NCBI GenBank assembly: GCA_902728285.1
Contig: CACVBU010000178.1
Coordinates: 682,001 to 746,000, forward strand
Length of the DNA: 64,000 nt
Source of the DNA: Clytia hemisphaerica
Taxonomy: Eukaryota > Cnidaria > Hydrozoa > Leptothecata > Clytiidae
Reading direction: 5' to 3'
Part shown: positions 35,913 to 62,473 of the stretch, in pieces
How the letters are laid out: each line of letters begins with the position of its first letter
How positions within the stretch are numbered: the first letter of the stretch is position 1
The notes under the pieces: generated by a model
The model's input: the letters and a program-made list of their open reading frames with translations, nothing else
Told to the model about the DNA's origin: nothing
Databases searched by the model: none
Position numbers and translations under genes: made by a program

Positions 35913-36286
35913 AATACCAAACTTAATCCCTTCAGTAACCATCTAATTATAGAATTCTTAAATTCAGTTACTTTTTAATCAAGTCTGTTTTGGTGTACGT
36001 TATATAATAATCGATGTTATATCCATAAGTCACCTTTTTTGCACGAAATTGAGGCATGATTGCTACATGTTTATCACGTGGTATGTTTGTTTACAAACAA
36101 TATAGTAACAGCTGTAATCTGAAGAATTTGAATGAACTCCACCGTTAATTATCTTGCTCAATTATAAGGAGTTAAAAAAATACTTTTCTAAAATTCTCCC
36201 AATTAAGTACTCGTGGTTTAAAGAAAATATTTTTCATTTTTTTCAAAACCAATATGATATAGCATGCTATTTCTAGTTGTTAGGAA

Positions 36287-37041
36287 TCGTTCGTTCGTTC
36301 GTTCGTTCGTTCGTTCGTTCGTTCGTTCGTTCGTTCGTTCGTTCGTTCGTTCGTTTCGTTCGTTCGTTCGTTCGTTCGTTCGTTCGTTCGTTCGTTCGTT
36401 CGTTCGTTCGTTCGTTCGTTCGTTCGTTCGTTCGTTCGTTCGTTCGTTCGTTCGTTCGTTCGTTCGTTCGTTCGTTCGTTCGTTCGTTCGTTCGTTCGTT
36501 CGTTCGTTCGTTCGTTCGTTCGTTCGTTCGTTCGTTCGTTCGTTCGTTCGTTCGTTCGTTCGTTCGTTCGTTCGTTCGTTCGTTCGTTCGTTCGTTCGTT
36601 CGTTCGTTCGTTCGTTCGTTCGTTCGTTCGTTCGTTCGTTCGTTCGTTCGTTCGTTCGTTCGTTCGTTCGTTCGTTCGTTCGTTCGTTCGTTCGTTCGTT
36701 CGTTCGTTCGTTCGTTCGTTCGTTCGTTCGTTCGTTCGTTCGTTCGTTCGTTTCGTTCGTTCGTTCGTTCGTTCGTTCGTTCGTTCGTTCGTTCGTTCGT
36801 TCGTTCGTTCGTTCGTTCGTTCGTTCGTTCGTTCGTTCGTTCGTTCGTTCGTTCGTCCGTCCGTCCGTCCGTCCGTCCGTCCGTCCGTCCGTCCGTCCGT
36901 CCGTCCGTCCGTCCGTCCGTCCGTCCGTCCGTCCGTCCGTCCGTCCGTCCGTCCGTCCGTCCGTCCGTCCGTCCGTCCGTCCGTCCGTCCGTCCGTCCGT
37001 CCGTCCGTCCGTCCGTTCGTTCGTTCGTTCGTTCGTTCGTT
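36287..37041. repeat. 755-bp (TTCG)n / (TCCG)n microsatellite
   Basis: A pure TTCG tetranucleotide array to about 36855, broken only by an extra T near 36353 and 36750. It then switches to about 40 TCCG units (about 36855-37015) and returns to TTCG for the last ~7 units. TTAGGAA just before (36280-36286) and TTCCTAA just after (37040-37046) are inverse. The 260-285-codon frames in three frames and both strands are artefacts; 4 is not a multiple of 3, so every frame stays open. Confidence 0.98.
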
Positions 37042-37667
37042 CCTAATTTTTTTGTTAGCCCACTCTTTTGAGTGTCTTAGTTCAAATTTCATCATTTTTT
37101 TCTTTTCGATTTGGCACCTTCCTACGTTGAAAAACATGTGAAAAATGATGTCGTAATAATTTTGTAAGAATTTTCAAGAGAAAATGAAAGATCGCTTAGT
37201 TATGATATCAGATGAACAGCTGTGAAAGTTTCATGAATCTAGACCCGTGTTGCTCAAACCTCCGGATACTTCGCGTTCAAGCATCAATTAATTTCTTCTT
37301 TATGCCCACGATTATATCACACGTTCGTACCGCAGTGCTTTTTCTTATGGCGTCACAATATTGCCCTGAGAATTTAGTACTTATATAGATAGATCTTGCT
37401 TACCAGAAATTTGAATAAAAGAGATCTCTATTTAGATACCTTTTTACCAGTCATATCTTCATTTTGAAAAAGAGCACAATGTAAGTTATTTGAATTATAA
37501 ATTTCATAAATTTGTGATTTGAAACTTTCGAGCCTTTAGAATTATGGGTTAGAGTTATGGGTTTCTGTATATGGGCTAGAGTTAAGGGTCAGTTATGTGC
37601 CATATCGTTTGGAGAAAAAAGGTAAAAACAATTCGTTTTGCATCTCCTTATGTTTAGCAGAGTTTGT
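37042..37667. other. AT-rich stretch, nothing recognised
   Basis: No convincing frame or repeat, apart from short TTAGGGTTAGAG-like repetition near 37540-37590. Confidence 0.4.
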
Positions 37668-49153: not shown

Positions 49154-49670
49154 GTAGAAATCTCTATTTTCTCATTATTTCGTTTTCATATCATTTTTTT
49201 GTTGAGGTTTTTTTGTGTGTGAAATAAGTTTCTTCTCGTTGTAGCGTCTTTTCTATTCTCAGTCTTCTTCTTATGCAAAGTGAAAGCGTCTTTTTCTACT
49301 GTTGCGTGACCATTTTATCTATTATATGTGTTCAATTTCAGTATGTACTTTTTTTGGCACAATAAAATGTCACCTTCAACAAAATCTTAACCAAAGAAAA
49401 TCAAAAATTTGAACGTTTTCATCATTACCATAATCACACACAAACACACAATTTAGAAGTAGAAAGAAATTCAAAAAAAAAAATCACGATTTTAACAATT
49501 TTCACTAAAACTTTCTTTTTTTCTTTTCTCTTTTTTGATCCTTGTGTAGGGACTATAGGTTTGAATTTCGAGAATCAAGCTCGCTCGCCTGCTCGCTCAC
49601 AACTTTAACACTCTAAGGACTCACTCACTCGGTTTTATCAGCACACTGTGTGGACACACTCACCCAAACA

Positions 49671-52427
49671 ATGGATTCAATATGGCAGACGCCTGCATTC
49701 AAACCAACCAACAAAAACCAGAGTGTCCTTAAATTATCTGAAAGGTATACAGTAGAGTCCAGGACCCGGACTCGAACCCAGGTCCCTAAACCTGGGACCC
49801 AACTCCCAATTTTTAATTATTATTTCATTCTTCAGGGTGTCTCGTTTATAATGGCTTCCTCTTACTTAAATCTAACTAAATCCTCATATTTCTCATTTCT
49901 TCAGAGACCAAATCCAATGGAATCGTTCATCGCAGGATCCACAAGCGGAGCAATCTCATGCTTTTTGTTCCAACCTTTGGACTTGATCAAAACTAAGCTC
50001 CAAGCGCAAGTTTCAACTGCTACTTCACTTCAACAAGCTATTGTCGACGGTAGACTAGCTCCTAAACATAATTACAGGTACCTTTGCTATATTACTCTTT
50101 ATAAGATTTTTAAAGGGATCAACAGGGCTCAAATGTTTAAAATTTATGTCATTTTTACCCCAAAATAACAGGAGGCAAAAACTCAAAGTTCACTGTTTTA
50201 TCGGAAACAAACTTACTTGTTCCTTCAGAAAATATTTAATTTGATCAGGAAGAATTTGCCAAACTTTAAGTTTTTCTCTTCCTTTTCATTTTTACTATCA
50301 TTCTACTATCGATTGTTCATTTTGATGATAGTAAGAAAAGTAGTAGCAAAAATAATACTGTTAAATTATTCAAAAATTTGAAATTTTGTCTATTCCCATT
50401 GGAAACACACGTTCTGTAGGTAGCTTGAAATTGTAAATTTGAAGAGTGGAAAATCTAATTTTTTTTATTTTCTTTTTCCCTTTTTTTTAGTCAAAGTTCT
50501 GTTGCCTCTTTGCTCACCCAAGTTGTTCGTGAAGACAAAGTGCTTGGACTATGGAAAGGTTTAACACCTGTAAGTATTGCTCCTTGTTATGATCAAGTGT
50601 AAGAAAATATAGAACTGTGTTGTGGAGCAAGCATTATTCAAAAAAGGTTTTCTATACCAGCCAAGACAGCTCGTTTTGCCGTGATGTTTGAAATATCTTT
50701 AGCGCTATTTTTTCACCAAATATTTTTTCCGCTAAAGCCTTTCAAAAACGTCAATTTCTCTTTATCATGCTCACGATGAAGTTTTTAATCTTCGAAAGGA
50801 GCTTCATTCTGATAAGCAAGATTCTTATCAATAGTTTATTGCGAACCTCTTTCTTACTAAGTAAATTCAATTTTCCTAGAAACCAAAAGTGATTCTTTTT
50901 CAGAACGTGACAAGAAATTGAAAACCCTAATAATACTGTTTTCTGTTAGCAGCAATACAAATTCCTTAAATTACTCTCAGATATTACTGTGGGATCGAAT
51001 GACTCAACGAATGACTGGAATTCTAATTTTTCTTATTTTCTTTTTTAGTCGCTGTACAGAACTGTGCCAGGCGTAGGGATGTATTTCTGTACACTACACA
51101 CAATGAAAAGTGTTTTAGAGTAAGTAATAGTAATAACTATGATCCCTTTACGTCCATTCATATTCATTACTGAGCTGTTAGGTTATGTAAATCACTTAAA
51201 GACGCATTTTATCTTTTATAAGAATTTTGAACCGCAGTCAAAATGTAATCTGTTGTGATCTGTTTTTACATAATAGTGACTTTGCAAGGGAAGGACTAGC
51301 GAGCACCTCTCTAAAAACCGGGATTTTTCATCTCGTTTCTTAGTGAGTTCCACTTTGACGATATTCGAAAAATAGAAGCCTTTTAAGTGCTTTGACGCAA
51401 ATTCGATTTTTTCGCTACTGCAGGAGCTTCGAAAGTTAAAAGTGACGTCAAAAAATCGAATGTTTAGAGCCCGAAAACCCGGGCTCAAAACATTCGAAAA
51501 AGTCGCAAAGTGGAATAGACAAAAAAGTCGCAAAGTGGAATAGACGTTAATTGCGTAAAAAAACGCGAGTGACGTCTAGTATAGGCCAGGGAAGGACTGT
51601 TTCATTCAACACGCTTTGGTGATTTCAGCTTAATAATTTTTTTTGAATGCTTACTATAAAAATACTTGGTTACGCATACATTGTAATTAAAGAAACCTCG
51701 TTTATAGCGAGAAAAAAAAATTTAAATTCTCATGCTGAAAATGTCATTAAAAATTATTTAAAAAAGCATAACAACCCTCAGATAAGCCTCTCGCCAAACC
51801 GGTTTGACAACATTACAATGTCATCTTTACTATTTCAAAAAAAAAACGAAACGAAATTTCATAATGATGTTTTAATCGCCTTACTATTAAGCAACTAATT
51901 TTCTCAAGGGGTCTATGAGTAATTAACTTTTTTTGAATATCTAATGGTCTGACAGCCAGCCCTTCCGTTGCAAAGTCACCATTATGTAAAAACAAATCAC
52001 AACAGATTAGATTGAATATTTCGAGGCCTTAGTTACCTATGAAAGGATAATACCTTTCCGTAAACAACCCTAGTGCAAAAGGAAATTGTAACTAAAAACT
52101 GATTAAGTTCGAAATGTTTTGTCAAACTCTCATGCAAGTTTTTGTGACTTATAAACATTCACATTGAAGCAAAACAAAAACTGTTAGGCTAAGAAACCTT
52201 CTCTTTCGAGTGTGTTGTACTAAGCATTGGTCTAAGATAAATACACTTGAGAGTTTGTCTTAGCCTAACCATGAAAGAATCTGTTTATTTAATCTCAACG
52301 TTTTTCTTCTTATTTTACAGTGAAGAACCAACCTTCTATCAGAACTTAATGCTTGGATTCACAGCTCGCGCATGCGTAGGAACAGCTGTTTTACCTATGA
52401 CCGTCGTCAAAGCACGCTATGAGGTAA

Positions 52428-55699: not shown

Positions 55700-55810
55700 G
55701 AGGTGGGAGACCCTGGGGGGCACTGACCTTGACAACCGACAGGGACGTGCCGCTGGAGTTTCAAAAGTCGATCCTGTCAGAAATGAAATTTGATGAAAAA
55801 TAGACCCTGT
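55700..55810. mobile_element. Family-F MITE, left half, interrupted by the 6.5-kb transposon
   Basis: GACCCTGGGGGGCACTGACC, then ACCGACAGGGACGTGCCGCT and CCTGTCAGAAATGAAATTTG match, unit by unit, the left side of 25697-26007. The other part resumes at 62344-62473 with four more ACCCTGTCAGATTCTAC-type units. 54971-55699 before it holds no gene. Confidence 0.7.
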
Positions 55811-55838
55811 CAGTCAGGGAAATCCCTCAATTGCGGTA

Positions 55839-55966
55839 TACCGCAATTGCGGTAGTGGAATTTTCATCGGAGAATCATTTTACCGCAATTGCGGTATCTA
55901 TTTTCCATTTCAAATAAGTACCGCAATTGCGGTATAACGAACTTTTCATATACCGCAATTGCGGTA
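55839..55966. promoter_or_regulatory. Left array of TACCGCAATTGCGGTA palindromes
   Basis: Four perfect copies at 55839-55854, 55881-55896, 55919-55934 and 55951-55966; an imperfect copy lies at the TIR edge (55824-55838). Spacing is 42, 38 and 32 bp. A TTATAATA box at 55987-55994 and the transposase ATG at 56032 follow, so the array is both sub-terminal and promoter-proximal. A 16-bp palindrome suits a dimeric DNA-binding protein; which protein binds is unknown. Confidence 0.8.
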
Positions 55967-56031
55967 AAATAAATACTTAAAACTTGTTATAATACATCAG
56001 AACACTTCATTTCCATCATAATAACATAACA

Positions 56032-58926
56032 ATGAAGCGGAGAAGTTGTGCATCAGAAAGTGACTTTTCAAAAGAGTGTAAGTGTATTGTTCACGACAAA
56101 ACGGTATCATCAGAAAAGGCATGGCATATTGAGACCTCGCGAGTGTTCCGGCCCGTCATTATAGACGAGTTGAAAAAACAAAACCTGCTACCAGAGAGGG
56201 CAAATTTCTTGTGCGCTACATGTTACGGGCGATACGGCAAACGACTTTGCCCTATATCCTCTGCGTTCACCCGAACAGACAAGTCCGTCGAACCACTTTC
56301 AAATTTCATCCCACCAATAAACCCACCCACTGAACAAGCGTTGAATTCGACTTCACCAACAGTCCAACCTATCGAAACCCCAGATGGTTCATACCCAATT
56401 AGTTCCTCAAATTTTCAATTCGTGATGCACTTTTGCAAATGATCAATGTTTTGATGAATCACTCGTCAGACAACCTCTTGGAAGGAAACGAATCTCTCTG
56501 GTCGTCGTTACTATATCTTTTGGGAAATAAGATTCTCAATAAAGCAATATACGAAGACGGTATGTTAATATCAAAACTCTACAAGAATTCTAAATTTTTA
56601 ACAGAACAAAATGTCGAACAGTATATTTTAGATAGAAACAGATTTCTCGTGTTATTCTTGTGTGGTGCCACCGGACTGAACGTTCTCGACGCGTCAGCAC
56701 GGCAAAAATTTGCATTTGTGAATACAATTGAATGTATTTATCATTTAAGAAATCTGACACTTGTACTGCCATTTTCTTTCATTGAAAACTTACTCCAGTC
56801 AGCCATTTCAGGCTCAAAAGTCGTTTCTGTTGTCAATGGAAAAACAACCCCTGGAGGAAGCTATCCCACTTATCGAAGTTGGATTAATGAGAAAGGTGCA
56901 ATACCACTTCAAATCATGGGTCGACCAATTGATCTCTACTTTGATAACATTGGAAAATATAATAAAAAACTATCGTATTAGTATTCACAAAACTAAAACA
57001 GCTGACGTGATTACAACCGGCATTCAAATTTCTTTAAAAACCGATGACAATGACCTTCAAAGAAGACCTGACTTAAAACCGATTCGATTATTCGACGTGA
57101 AGAATTCCCACAAGGCAATGAATGCGGAAATCGAAAAAGCTTCTTCAAATTTTCAAAAGTTTCGGTATGAATTCGTGAAATCTATCTTCGACTTGATCGA
57201 CGTTGGTGATAGATATGACAAAAGCATTGACGATAATATTAAGGTAACTAAGCTTTTCAATATAGGCCGAAATCTTTTTACATTGCGTTACTATTTTTGT
57301 CACCATTTTGTTACGATTCTCCTTTTGTTACGCTGTGAAATTTTTATTTCATTTTTTCCCAGAAAATGGACACGAAGCGTGAATGTCTTGATTGTGGAAA
57401 AACATACGTCAACCTTAAACGTAAATGTACATGCGGAAGTGAGAACATCGTAAAACCCTCAAACAGCAAATCTCCGAAAGTTAAATTGTCAGCCGACATA
57501 AACAGCTTTGTAACGTCGAAAAATAACGAAAACAATCCCGAAATCAAAATGGTCGATTCGATTATGTTGAACCCCAACAGCTACAAAAATATAGAATCGA
57601 TACTTTCAGAATTGAAAATCATTGCTGGTATATATTTAAATTCTTTTAGTTCTAATTCATTTTGACGAAATAAAGGGGCTTCTTTGTATACATCAGATTC
57701 CGTGATTTTTGCTTCCCAATGGTTTTCCCGAATGTTTTTTTCTACCGGTTCATCTAAACGTGTTTAATATGTCCAGCCTAAAAGATAGCTATTATCGATT
57801 CACTTGTTATCTTTAATTTTTTTTCAGGAATCGGCAAACAACGAGAATGGGTTTTTTTGGGTTGTGATGGACCTCCGTATTGTCTCTCTGAGCGGATTAT
57901 ATCGAAGAACACAAAGTTTGATTTTGCTGCAATGACCCCTGGCCTAGGACATCTGCACATGAATCAACAAAAAACCATTTTAAAGATACTCGACGAAATA
58001 ATCTTGGAGCCACTTGCCAAAGATGTCCTTAACTTCAATTCGCAGGCGGCTTATCAAGTTTTTGTTGATTCAAAAGATACGCATAAATCTTGGCAAGCTA
58101 TTCAAGTACTCTTGGTCGGGACACCCTAGAGCTCGTTCGTCTATTCAAATCAACCAACCCTGCAGCTAAAACCCCGATTGGTTTCCTAAATTGGATAAGT
58201 TACAACGAAAACGTAACATTAAAGATGATCGGAAATCTCATCCTGACATATGTACTAGCCATCTATTTATTCAAGGCAGGCGTTCGCAGCAACGACGTTA
58301 TATTGATCAACGCCGCGAGATACAAATTTGATGATCTATTTTATGCCTTCCCTCATCCTATCTACAGGGAAGTTGAATATTGTGACCTGAAAAACCGCGT
58401 CAATTATAAGCCAGAAGTACGAAAGGTTCGAGATGAAAATATGTCTTTCAGTGAGAGTAAAAACAAGCTCAAAAGTCAAGGCGGTGACTTTATATTGGAG
58501 GGAAAAGTTAAAAGACAGAAACTACTTGCCCCAAATGGTCCAGTAAAAGCAGACACGTGGAAAACTTTGGCTCGTTGTCTTGACGAGTTTGAAGAAATTT
58601 ACTCAACTTCAAACAAATTTTTGAATATCAAATCGTCAGAGGAAAAATCTCTTGACCTTAAATCGGAAATCTCTATTTGGCAGTCTGTTCTGAGATCCTC
58701 AAAGTTTCTGGTCGCAGAAAATTTTTCGAACTCTCCTAAGAATATTTTTGGTGAAATCCTTTCTGAGGAGCTTGTGAATCTTCCTGACAATGCAATGAAA
58801 AAGAGGCTCGAAGTCTGGAAAATGATTGAGAAGTCCACAGACATGAACATTTGCAATGCTAAAGTCGATTTCATTAAAGTCAATCCTCACAAAGATTTGG
58901 TAAATTTGTTATATATTAATGATTAG
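56032..58926 (+). pseudogene. Transposase-like gene (DDE-type candidate), 3 exons, 3 frameshifts
   Basis: Exons 56032-57243, 57363-57627 and 57828-58926, joined by GT/AG introns in phase, would give about 858 residues. The N terminus has a Cys/His cluster (KECKCIVH ... FLCATCYGRYG); a second zinc-ribbon-like CLDCGKTY...KCTCGS opens exon 2. Candidate acidic catalytic residues: Asp in DLYFDNIGKY (about 56940), Asp in WVFLGCDGPPYCLSERII (57848-57901) followed by MTPGLGHLHMNQQKT, and Glu in GGDFILEGKVKRQ (about 58486-58524). DTHKSWQAI and HPIYREVEYCDL are further conserved-looking blocks. The frame breaks three times: between 56403 and 56442 (near a TTTT), in the A6 run at 56964-56969, and at CCC 58124-58126, where TAG follows in the old frame. 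Each needs only one or two bases to restore, so slippage mutation or assembly error are both possible. I recall similar blocks in unnamed invertebrate proteins but cannot name the superfamily. Confidence 0.75.
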
Positions 58927-59003
58927 TCTAGCCGTTACATTTTTCCCGAAGTTTTATTATTTTTGATCATCTTCTTTTTTTGTAATTGAAATAGTTTAAC
59001 ATT

Positions 59004-59146
59004 ACACCCCTTTCTCACAGACCCACTGGGAACCCTCCCAATCGAAAAATTAGCCAAAATATTGTTCCCGGTGAAACAATATCAATTTTTGTCTTTAAAA
59101 TAATGAAAATAATCAAATCAATTCCGGGTCTGTGAGAAGGGGGTGT
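59004..59146. mobile_element. 143-bp MITE between the convergent transposon genes
   Basis: ACACCCCTTTCTCACAGACC and GGGTCTGTGAGAAGGGGGTGT are inverted. AACATT flanks both sides (58998-59003, 59147-59152). The termini resemble the MITE at 41832-42082. It lies 77 bp after the transposase stop, in the only non-coding gap between the convergent genes, and disrupts nothing. Confidence 0.85.
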
Positions 59147-59334
59147 AACATTTTAATGTCTTAAATATACTCAACCAATAGTGTTTTGAACATTTTTAAA
59201 ATATATTAATACAATTTCATGTAGTCGCAAACGATAGTGGCTAACGATTCAAACTCAACTGAAATTCAAACATTGTATCAAAATTAAAGTAGCCATGTTA
59301 ACATTAACAATAACAAGAAAGTTCAATTCTTGAA

Positions 59335-60321
59335 CTACTTTTTCTTACTCGGCTTCGTTTTCTTCTTTTTCGTGGGGGACGCGGGTGGTGGTCTAGGTGT
59401 ATGCATCGGGCATGTCCAAGTTACACTCTTAACTGCCCTTGGCATAGTAATACCGGAGCATTTCATGTGGTGCCACACTTCACATTTTGGATATTGGCAT
59501 CCGATCCATTTTGAATCCCAATCTTGATCTCGTTTAGAGTTTTCAATGATACCACATAGCTGACAAACATTCATCTTTCGCTTTCTTGCTCGTGAAGGCG
59601 AAGAAGCTTCAAGCTCTTGGAGTGTAGGCTCGTCGTACATGTTCTTTGTTGTTTGATTATAGTCAGCGTTGAAAAGATGTTTGTTTGTTGCGTAGCGAAT
59701 GATTTGGGGTGGTCTGTTCGGAAAATGTCTATGATGTTCGATCAAAGTATCATCGTCTGTTCTGAACTTTAAATCCCGCATCTTAGAAATAAGTCCATTA
59801 ATATGGTTGCTTCGTGATTTAGCAGCCTCGAAACTATTCTCACATCTTTTTTGGTATCGTTTCCCTCTCACTTTATCTTTGGGCGTCGAAGCCTGGATTT
59901 CTTGTTGGTGTTGAGTTAGTTTGCGTTTTTTGGATGTCACGCATGTTCCGTCTTCTTTGTAAACATTGAAATCGTCGAGCGACGGAATTTGCTCTTTAGT
60001 TATCGAAGAAGTAGGTCGGTCTTTAGTTATCGAAGAAGTAGGTCGGTCTTTAGTTATCGAAGAAGTAGGTCGGTCTTTAGTTATCGAAGAAGTAGGTCGG
60101 TTAATGATTGAAGATATTGGTGATGCTGTCGATACCAAAATTTCTGAATCTTCATCATAAAAAGGAATTTGCGTGTCTGCATGAGTAGGTGTTAATAAAA
60201 AATTTTCTGAATAGTTTATCGATTTTAAAGGCGTTGAAGTATGTTCGTTTGTATCAAAAAGTGATGTTTGCGTGTTCGAGAATTGCTCTATTATATCTGT
60301 GATATCTTCAAATTGACTCAT
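59335..60321 (-). CDS. Transposon-encoded PHD-finger protein, 328 aa
   Basis: Single intact exon on minus. Residues about 253-307 form a PHD-like zinc finger: CQLC, GCQYPKC, then H-x2-C in HHMKC, then TWTCPMH. This is C4HC2H spacing with the last ligand His instead of Cys and the usual Trp two residues before the final pair. PHD fingers typically read histone-tail lysine methylation, so the protein may steer integration to marked chromatin; that is inference. The N-terminal 120 residues are Ser/Thr/Asp-rich and include four tandem copies of RPTSSITKD (27-bp DNA units, about 59990-60100). Basic stretches (KRKLTQ, RGKRYQKRC, and a Lys-rich C terminus) suggest nuclear localisation or DNA binding. 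Stop codon 59335-59337. It sits tail to tail with the transposase-like gene. Confidence 0.85.
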   Translation of the reverse strand: MSQFEDITDIIEQFSNTQTSLFDTNEHTSTPLKSINYSENFLLTPTHADTQIPFYDEDSEILVSTASPISSIINRPTSSITKDRPTSSITKDRPTSSITKDRPTSSITKEQIPSLDDFNVYKEDGTCVTSKKRKLTQHQQEIQASTPKDKVRGKRYQKRCENSFEAAKSRSNHINGLISKMRDLKFRTDDDTLIEHHRHFPNRPPQIIRYATNKHLFNADYNQTTKNMYDEPTLQELEASSPSRARKRKMNVCQLCGIIENSKRDQDWDSKWIGCQYPKCEVWHHMKCSGITMPRAVKSVTWTCPMHTPRPPPASPTKKKKTKPSKKK

Positions 60322-60568
60322 TTTATGTTCTATTCACGCTGAAACGAAATAAGTAATGAGTTTTAAGAATATTAATTTATCAAAATCAGACGCAAACGAT
60401 TCTATCATTGATTGTATAAAAAGTTTTATCCTACTGACTAATAATTAATTGAGAAGCAATAATAACTAGGGTAAAAAGGCACAAAGTTAATTTTAGACAA
60501 TATCGTGATATCAACCCAGATTTTTTTTCATTTAACAAAATTATGTTTAGATCGTAAAATATAACATT

Positions 60569-61000
60569 TTAGTAACAAATTCTTTCAATGTCTTGTTTAG
60601 GGATGTTGCACTCGAAAAGCTTTTTGATTTCCTCCAAGTCTTTGATTTTATAGGTAAATTCATATTTACAATCCAAAACAGCACCGCCACCATTTTTATC
60701 ATACGGACGACCTTGCTCAAACTTACCAGTGTAGTTTTTTAGCCTGTGCACATTGTTCAAATAAATACACCTGAAGTCTTTGCCTAGACTGTGGAGCTTT
60801 AGCATACGAAAGGCGCGACAGAGATTCGCCGGGACTCTACCGACGGTTTTTCGTTCTTTTTTTGTCTTAACTAGGACAGCATAAGGGTCGTATTTGTTGT
60901 CGTTCTCCTTGTAAAGAAGCATTTCCTCATTATCATTAGGTCTAATTTTGAAAACGTGATAGCCACTTACAAACCAGTGTATTTCGGCCTTTTTTTCCAT
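60569..61000 (-). CDS. Small HIRAN-like domain protein, 143 aa
   Basis: Intact single-exon frame on minus, upstream of and co-directional with the PHD gene; 247 bp separate them. The core VSGYHVFKIRPNDNEEMLLY, then ENDNKYDPYAVLV, then KTVGRVPANLCRAFRML fits the HIRAN pattern: beta strand, xExxNxYDxxAVxV, G-x-(I/V)-P. HIRAN domains are known from HLTF/Rad5 helicases, where they bind single-stranded 3' DNA ends, and as stand-alone proteins in invertebrate genomes. Here it could protect or process transposon ends (inference). The C-terminal third carries GGGAVLDCKYEF. No break seen. Confidence 0.8.
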   Translation of the reverse strand: MEKKAEIHWFVSGYHVFKIRPNDNEEMLLYKENDNKYDPYAVLVKTKKERKTVGRVPANLCRAFRMLKLHSLGKDFRCIYLNNVHRLKNYTGKFEQGRPYDKNGGGAVLDCKYEFTYKIKDLEEIKKLFECNIPKQDIERICY

Positions 61001-61610
61001 TTTTTAATCGAAAACTACAATAGAAAGAAAGACAATGTAAAGGACCCTGTCGCAATTAGTGACCTGACCTTATCAATCAACATAAAAGCTCCCTCTCAAT
61101 GTAATTTAAATAGACCTTAACAAACATTCGAACACATTCGAAAAAAAACAACATTCGAACGAAAAGATTCCTTTCCTTGTCAAAATAAAAATAAAAACAG
61201 ATAGAGCTAGAAGGGAAAACATGGAAAATGTGAAACAGTATTTTTAACTTTCAAAAGAACTTTTTTGAGATTATTTCAAAAAGAACCTGGCAGCGCTTTA
61301 TCATTTGAAAGAGAGAGAGGTAACATCGTTTTAACCCATTATACCCAGAGAAAGAGTGGAAAGACTATGAATTTAATTTCTTGTTAACTTTCAACAAGAT
61401 CTCCCAACCGTCATCCGTTCATTTTTAATTTACAACAGATTAGATAAAAACTTGATCAAACATGCCATAGTATTAATCATTTCCCATTTTTCATTGTAAC
61501 CAGCCCACCAATCTTTTCCACTTTTCTGTGTTCTTTACTTCCCAAAAGTTTATTTAAAAATGGGTCGTATCGATAATTTTATAGTTATTTATACCACAGG
61601 GAAGATTCAC

Positions 61611-61920
61611 TTTAAATAGGCATTGGAATCAGTTTGTTCCTTTAAATAGACGTTCGAATCAGTTTGTCCTTTTAAATAGACGTTCGCTTTAAATAGGCAT
61701 TGGAATCAGTTTGTTCCTTTAAATAGACGTTCGAATCAGTTTGTCCCTTTAAATAGACGTTCGAATTAAATAGACGTTCGAATCAGTTTGTCCCTTTAAA
61801 TAGACGTTCGAATCAGTTTGTCCCTTTAAATAGACGTTCGAATTAAATAGACATTCGAATCAGTTTATCCCTTTAAATAGACGTTCGAATCAGTTTGTCT
61901 CTTTTAAAAGACATTCACGA
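61611..61920. repeat. 30-bp minisatellite in the transposon's right sub-end
   Basis: About ten copies of a unit near TTTAAATAGACGTTCGAATC plus AGTTTGTCCC, with some truncated AATTAAATAGACGTTCG joins. It lies between the HIRAN-like gene start and the right palindromes. 61001-61610 has no other feature and would hold the minus-strand promoters. Confidence 0.9.
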
Positions 61921-62014
61921 ATCACGGTGTCCCGCCCTTTTGAAAAAACGTTCAAACGAGTCTGTCGTAATAAATAGTTATTTGAAATGTAAGTTCGAGT
62001 TGAAAAATGTTCGC

Positions 62015-62315
62015 TACCGCAATTGCGGTATAAGTAGATAATTGACGTCAAACCTACCGCAATTGCAGTAGATAAAAACCCAAAACTTTTTTTGGACTTC
62101 TTTTATGTTACATAGGGTCACAGATTGGCTTATAAAAAAAAAATGCATAGATAGATTTTTTTTTCCGTAGATGAAATTCTAGACGAATAAATTATCTTCC
62201 TTAAGTTGTAATTTTTGTTAGGCGATGACCGTTTGTTTTCGTCGACCAGCACTATACGTTTTTGTTACAACCTTTTTCAGGCTAAACAGAAAATTCCACT
62301 ACCGCAATTGCGGTA
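62015..62315. promoter_or_regulatory. Right set of TACCGCAATTGCGGTA palindromes
   Basis: Perfect copies at 62015-62030 and 62300-62315. One copy has a single change (GCAGTA) at 62055-62070, and one imperfect copy lies at the TIR edge (62316-62330). Fewer and more widely spaced than on the left. Confidence 0.8.
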
Positions 62316-62343
62316 TACCGCAATTGAGGGATTTCCCTGACTG

Positions 62344-62473
62344 CCTGTGTCAGAAGAAAAATTTGATGAAAAACCTACCCTGTCAGATTCTACTGTGAAA
62401 AACCTATACCCTGTCAGATTCTACCCTGAAAAACCTACCCTGTCTGATTCTATGTTAAAAACCTACTCTTTAT
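62344..62473. mobile_element. Family-F MITE, second part, after the transposon insertion
   Basis: Continues the element of 55700-55810 with CCTGTGTCAGAAGAAAAATT then TGATGAAAAACC, and three more ACCCTGTC(A/T)GATTCTA units. Its right terminus is missing, replaced by the CAATCGA element. Confidence 0.65.

Follow-up and report, generated by a model that had tools for sequence, protein, structure and literature searches.

RAG-like (RAGL) transposons are the source of the enzymes by which antibody genes are shuffled. RAGL gene pairs are invariably convergent, target site duplications are almost always 5 bp, and the terminal inverted repeats (TIRs) start with CAC (PMC7204232); RAG2-like proteins join kelch repeats to a PHD finger, with an amphioxus exception that has no PHD finger (PMC4411706; PMC7204232). 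An element that resembles these transposons in plan, a likeness by analogy that does not imply membership, lies at positions 55811..62343 of a 64-kb stretch of Clytia hemisphaerica DNA (the window; part of contig C128 of the 417-Mb assembly G000, to which all genome-wide counts refer). We are fairly confident that the locus holds a full-length eukaryotic DNA transposon of the cut-and-paste kind, whose superfamily is unnamed in the libraries used, namely Pfam and the PDB sequences. A first-pass annotation had read the locus as a complete 6.5-kb transposon of unclear superfamily, with TIRs of ~55 bp, a 5-bp flanking repeat, a multi-exon transposase-like gene, and two accessory genes; sequence comparison of the ends and flanks shows that the boundaries it gave are exact. 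The ends and genes are as follows (window coordinates):

55806..55810, no strand: left copy of the target site duplication CCTGT, 5 bp
55811..55865, + strand: left TIR, 55 bp, beginning CAGTCAGGGAAATCCC and identical to the right TIR over 55 bp
55825..55964, no strand: group of five palindromes of the type CCGCAATTGCGG, one of them with 1 mismatch, inside the TIR and immediately inward
56032..57243, + strand: transposase exon 1, with the N-terminal Cys/His-rich part, the first conserved Asp codon (56943-56945), and two frame-breaking indels
57363..57627, + strand: transposase exon 2, with zinc-ribbon-like cysteines
57828..58926, + strand: transposase exon 3, with the second Asp (57866-57868), a His (57950-57952), the likely catalytic Glu (58498-58500), and one frame-breaking indel
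59335..60321, - strand: gene for a PHD-finger protein (finger at ~59407-59565), running convergently towards the transposase gene; frame open
60569..61000, - strand: HIRAN-domain gene (Pfam HIRAN, E 2.1e-5, 24.7 bits, equal to the cut-off of 24.7); frame open
62017..62329, no strand: right-end group of four palindromes of the type CCGCAATTGCGG, two of them with 1 mismatch
62289..62343, - strand: right TIR, 55 bp, an identical inverted match to the left TIR
62344..62348, no strand: right copy of the target site duplication CCTGT, 5 bp

The element belongs to a transposon family that is present in many copies and duplicates 5 bp consistently. When up to 3 mismatches are allowed, a 39-bp pattern from the TIR is found at 134 places in the genome, 75 in forward and 59 in reverse orientation, vs. 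none for the reversed control, which excludes a chance origin of the TIR. The ends were checked in a sample of 18 copies, from which L017 (the L016 insertion again, on a different contig) was left out, as were L009-L015 and L019 (no end pair found). Both ends lay within the retrieved DNA in 17 copies, and the right end of L075 was not found within its 411-bp stretch. All 17 readable copies, which include 11 miniature inverted-repeat transposable elements (MITEs) of 290-379 bp and one copy of a related family (L050), carry an exact 5-bp duplication, whereas 5-bp agreement occurs in 4 of 272 mismatched flank pairings used as a control; no copy with another duplication length or without a conserved TIR was found, either of which would have counted against the first-pass annotation. 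The last base of the right end is altered in L007. The duplicated bases are A or T in 68 of 85 positions across the 17 copies, with no strict target. L050 is 6.1 kb long and has its own TIRs, an ACCAG duplication, and a transposase frame of 855 codons; its protein is 52% identical to that of the window copy over 255 residues in the last-exon part of the transposase. The TIR starts with CAGTCAGG in the window family and the L050 family alike. A search for the empty site of L016 gave no continuous match, and one place (C378) matches only positions 1-43 and 131-180 of the query. L018, at C398, is an internally deleted copy.

The predicted multi-exon gene (gene 1) stands, as three exons separated by GT-AG introns, which mark the host as a eukaryote, although its reading frame in the window copy is interrupted by three small indels relative to L009 and L011. 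Exon 1 is a single open frame in both of these loci; L009 carries other deletions, and L011 matches the first 2.6 kb only. Because the transposase frame is broken, the window copy is probably non-autonomous despite being full-length. Single open transposase frames occur in the relatives L050 and L051 (882 codons), and genome searches with two parts of the transposase gave 76 and 122 matches, reduced to 107 loci after the entered rows were merged.

Conservation was assessed with a profile built iteratively from open frames at the retrieved loci (L050 numbering; counts are of profile fragments covering the column). Near-invariant positions include D275 in FDNIGKY (25/25), D484 in GCDGPPY (25/26), G510 (31/31) and H513 (32/32) in GLGHMHMN, and E702 in QGxDFxLE (28/29). 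The catalytic Glu is likely to be E702, a choice that we infer rather than read directly, because E573 (29/31), E659 (30/33), D698 (29/30), and D730 (31/31) are conserved to a similar degree. In L050 and L051, the stretch between the two Asp residues contains a zinc-ribbon-like motif, CxxC...CxxC. The D, D, and E positions that the annotation had picked out as plausible agree with this family-wide conservation and with a DDE-like, weakly matching predicted model; gene 1 probably encodes a DDE (Asp-Asp-Glu) transposase. In L053, the first-Asp position reads FDNNQ.

The transposase family has a recurrent partner, a convergent PHD-finger gene. Both accessory genes proposed earlier are open frames with borderline Pfam matches; for gene 2, the PHD match has an E-value of 8.4e-5 and 23 bits, against a cut-off of 24. 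Its counterpart in L050 has a weaker Pfam PHD match (E 0.015), and its best match among PDB sequences is an MLL5 PHD construct (E 0.049). By eye, the ligand pattern is C-C-C-C-H-C-C-H, and all five aligned proteins have a Trp two positions ahead of the His. No Pfam kelch match was found in the PHD proteins. When part of the L050 PHD protein was searched against the genome, 59 matches were obtained and merged into 48 loci. At 30 of these, a transposase match is no more than 8 kb away (the area within this distance of the transposase loci makes up 0.44% of the genome); all 30 are convergent, with none divergent and none on the same strand. The convergent layout had been observed at some of these loci before the count was made, and several of the 30 are related insertions (e.g., C96 and C303), so the 30 loci do not represent 30 independent events. 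The other 18 loci have no transposase match within 8 kb; they include C398, the site of the internally deleted copy, and C36, where a same-strand transposase match lies 8.1 kb from the PHD locus. In a distant transposase group (C118, C417, and C853; 24-25% identity to L051), weak PHD matches (E 1.9e-5 to 5.5e-4) occur ~4 kb away.

A confident match to a named superfamily was looked for in Pfam and among PDB sequences, and none was found, in keeping with the earlier label of an unclear superfamily. Pfam scans of the intact L050 and L051 transposases (E<=5) and of 57 alignment members (E<=0.01) matched no named transposase family. In the 57-member scan, eight models match one to four members each, several of them zinc ribbons; the commonest is DUF6589, of unknown function (4/57), and each of the others matches one or two members. 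Tc1/mariner, piggyBac, Harbinger, MuDR, P, CACTA, KDZ, and Merlin each have a Pfam model, and no domain of these superfamilies was found in either scan. The profile matched no transposase among PDB sequences at E<=10, the best rows being adenylate kinase (0.025) and ribosomal proteins. A first structure model (predicted local distance difference test score, pLDDT, of 51.5; 17 sequences) had no Foldseek match at E<=0.001, and neither did a second model compared with PDB and BFVD; the best structural rows for the predicted transposase are the hAT transposase Hermes, a weak match. No relatives outside this genome were confirmed in the viral contigs, genome contigs, or phages searched, and among the titles listed in a literature survey none was recognised as describing this element.

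The layout invites the reading that the element is a divergent member of the RAG/Transib group (RAGL, ProtoRAG, or TransibSU), with a RAG1-like transposase too diverged to be seen and a PHD protein that is RAG2-like minus the kelch propeller; we regard this as improbable. The shared traits are the 5-bp duplication in all readable copies, a tail-to-tail pair of transposase and PHD-bearing genes between the TIRs, and a TIR that begins with CA. However, RAG1 was matched neither in the two Pfam scans nor among PDB sequences, a result that leaves room for deep kinship; the RAG1 model PF12940 has no match in the genome, but gave none in 14 control genomes either, and the absence of RAG1 from the structural rows listed carries no weight. 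The elements differ further in the zinc-ribbon-like cysteines between the first and second Asp, the lack of a recognised kelch, the palindromic subterminal repeats, and, in the window family, the additional HIRAN gene. The TIR starts with CAG, vs. CAC in RAGL elements (PMC7204232). There is a similarly slim chance that the element is a divergent hAT transposon with the same kind of helical insertion, to which the Hermes rows would point; a hAT5 group with 5-bp duplications is named in the reference list of PMC12730594. Against this, neither a hAT transposase nor a hATC dimerisation domain was found in the Pfam scan of the 57 members. The ends of hAT elements often begin with CAG, as here; a PHD partner gene is not known to be a hAT trait. 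Where hAT transposases have C/DxxH after the second Asp (PMC9587614), a near-invariant GxxH is found here (G510 and H513), the correspondence of the two sites being our own reading. Two other groups, Ginger and Academ, are set apart by published descriptions of their ends, duplications, and encoded enzymes. In Ginger elements (Ginger1 and Ginger2), duplications are 4 or 5 bp and one Ginger1 transposase is listed as having a PHD motif (PMC2836005; PMC10045372); however, this motif lies within the transposase, which is of the Gypsy-integrase type, and the termini are TGTNR (PMC2836005), whereas the ends here are CAGTCAGG and neither Pfam scan gave an integrase match. Academ elements are likewise TIR-bearing DNA transposons, some lineages of which have additional enzymes, but their duplications are 3-4 or 9-10 bp (PMC10045372), vs. 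5 bp in every readable copy here, and they encode a helicase or nuclease, neither of which was matched.

A kinship that would be compatible with an unnamed cut-and-paste superfamily, and that we hold to be unlikely but the least so of these alternatives, is membership of a group around Pfam DUF6589, the proteins of which would themselves be unrecognised transposases, perhaps present in Repbase without a name or under another one. The best of the four DUF6589 matches has an E-value of 5.3e-6, and three that were rescanned gave colinear stretches (profile positions 128-240 and 288-376), though at no more than 24.5 bits against a cut-off of 27. DUF6589 has at least 105 matches in this genome, and its motif order (DN, GDQLT, WHTK, E) is similar by eye. 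Profile comparison with four in-genome DUF6589 proteins was nevertheless negative, a reverse search with six in-genome open reading frames (ORFs) gave nothing above shuffled controls, and no TIRs were seen around DUF6589 ORFs within stretches of only 2.1-2.4 kb. We treat the kinship as a lead. The DUF6589 matches of this genome (e.g., L064-L067) include ORFs of 610-626 codons without stops that appear to form an abundant multicopy family, which is possibly itself transposase-like. A chance composite, in which two MITEs of the family with this TIR happen to enclose host genes, would fit with the many MITEs that bear this TIR and with the broken transposase of the window copy. It is highly improbable, and was rejected because the arrangement recurs: most of it in L009 (where the right end was not found), again in L050, at ~52% identity in the last-exon part and with separate TIRs and a separate 5-bp duplication, and as the transposase-PHD pair at 30 loci.

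For an unnamed cut-and-paste transposon, we propose the following mechanism. The product of gene 1 would be a DDE transposase with an RNase H-like core that, as modelled, is interrupted between the second Asp and the Glu by an all-helical insertion. The Cys/His-rich N-terminal part of the enzyme may bind the palindromes that lie in the TIRs and immediately inward of them, two transposase molecules would bring both ends together, and cleavage would take place next to CAG...CTG. The 3' ends would then be joined to target strands staggered by 5 bp, giving the 5-bp duplication. The PHD protein probably steers the transposase or integration complex to chromatin marked on histone H3, by analogy with the RAG2-type PHD finger; a probable role of the HIRAN protein is to bind DNA ends or to assist repair. 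The CCGCAATTGCGG palindromes are putative transposase binding sites: with up to 1 mismatch, nine occur in the 64-kb window vs. 0.07 expected, all of them near the element ends (five left, four right). In L050, eight matches of a different palindrome, CCGCGATCGCGG, lie at and immediately inward of the ends in the same layout; that two related families carry different yet equally palindromic repeats suggests that these are co-evolving binding sites.

We give about even chances to the broader proposal that these elements constitute a new, two-component superfamily, in which a DDE transposase and a PHD chromatin reader have stayed paired in widely differing families (transposase identity as low as ~24%), tail-to-tail and with a 5-bp stagger as in RAG1-RAG2 elements, by way of a transposase unrelated to RAG. 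If so, the RAG plan of a cutter joined to a histone reader arose, or was kept, more than once. Confirmation would add a second system in which a PHD protein accompanies a transposase, allow a long-standing question on RAG elements (the use of a histone-reading partner to a transposon, and whether it targets integration to active chromatin) to be tested by comparison, and raise a possible transposase function for DUF6589 proteins. It would also place one more superfamily beside the twenty eukaryotic ones listed as encoding a DDD/E transposase in PMC9587614.

The HIRAN gene is a recurrent but less constant companion, since a HIRAN match lies within 8 kb of a transposase match at 14 of 30 merged genome loci and without any at the other 16. 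Seven of the 14 neighbours are convergent; the remaining seven are upstream on the same strand, beside distant transposases. Some of the weaker HIRAN matches may represent other HIRAN genes. At the L053 locus (C33), C69, C613, C781, and C898, the HIRAN match lies on the same strand 0.5-2.4 kb upstream of a distant transposase, and is perhaps a fused or neighbouring gene.

Two further features lie within the element:

58983..59167, no strand: foldback stretch (inverted repeat) that separates the transposase gene from the PHD gene, with arms of 42 nt that are 76% complementary
61582..61946, no strand: internal tandem array on the right side, with spacings of 30 and 17 bp

The foldback arms are of the TACACCCC type, and because similar GTGTAAAC/GTTTACACCCC sequence also flanks L013-L017, a member of one mobile family may have inserted into another. 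The element itself seems to have inserted into a short tandem repeat, as repeat units of ~30 bp that share the core CCCTGTCAG form a local array around both ends (55761-55820 and 62348-62460). Elsewhere in the window, an ORF at 49617-50168 resembles, by a motif, a mitochondrial carrier of the SLC25 type. A long simple repeat at 36218-37173 can be read in several frames as open stretches of (NERT)n and (SFVR)n.

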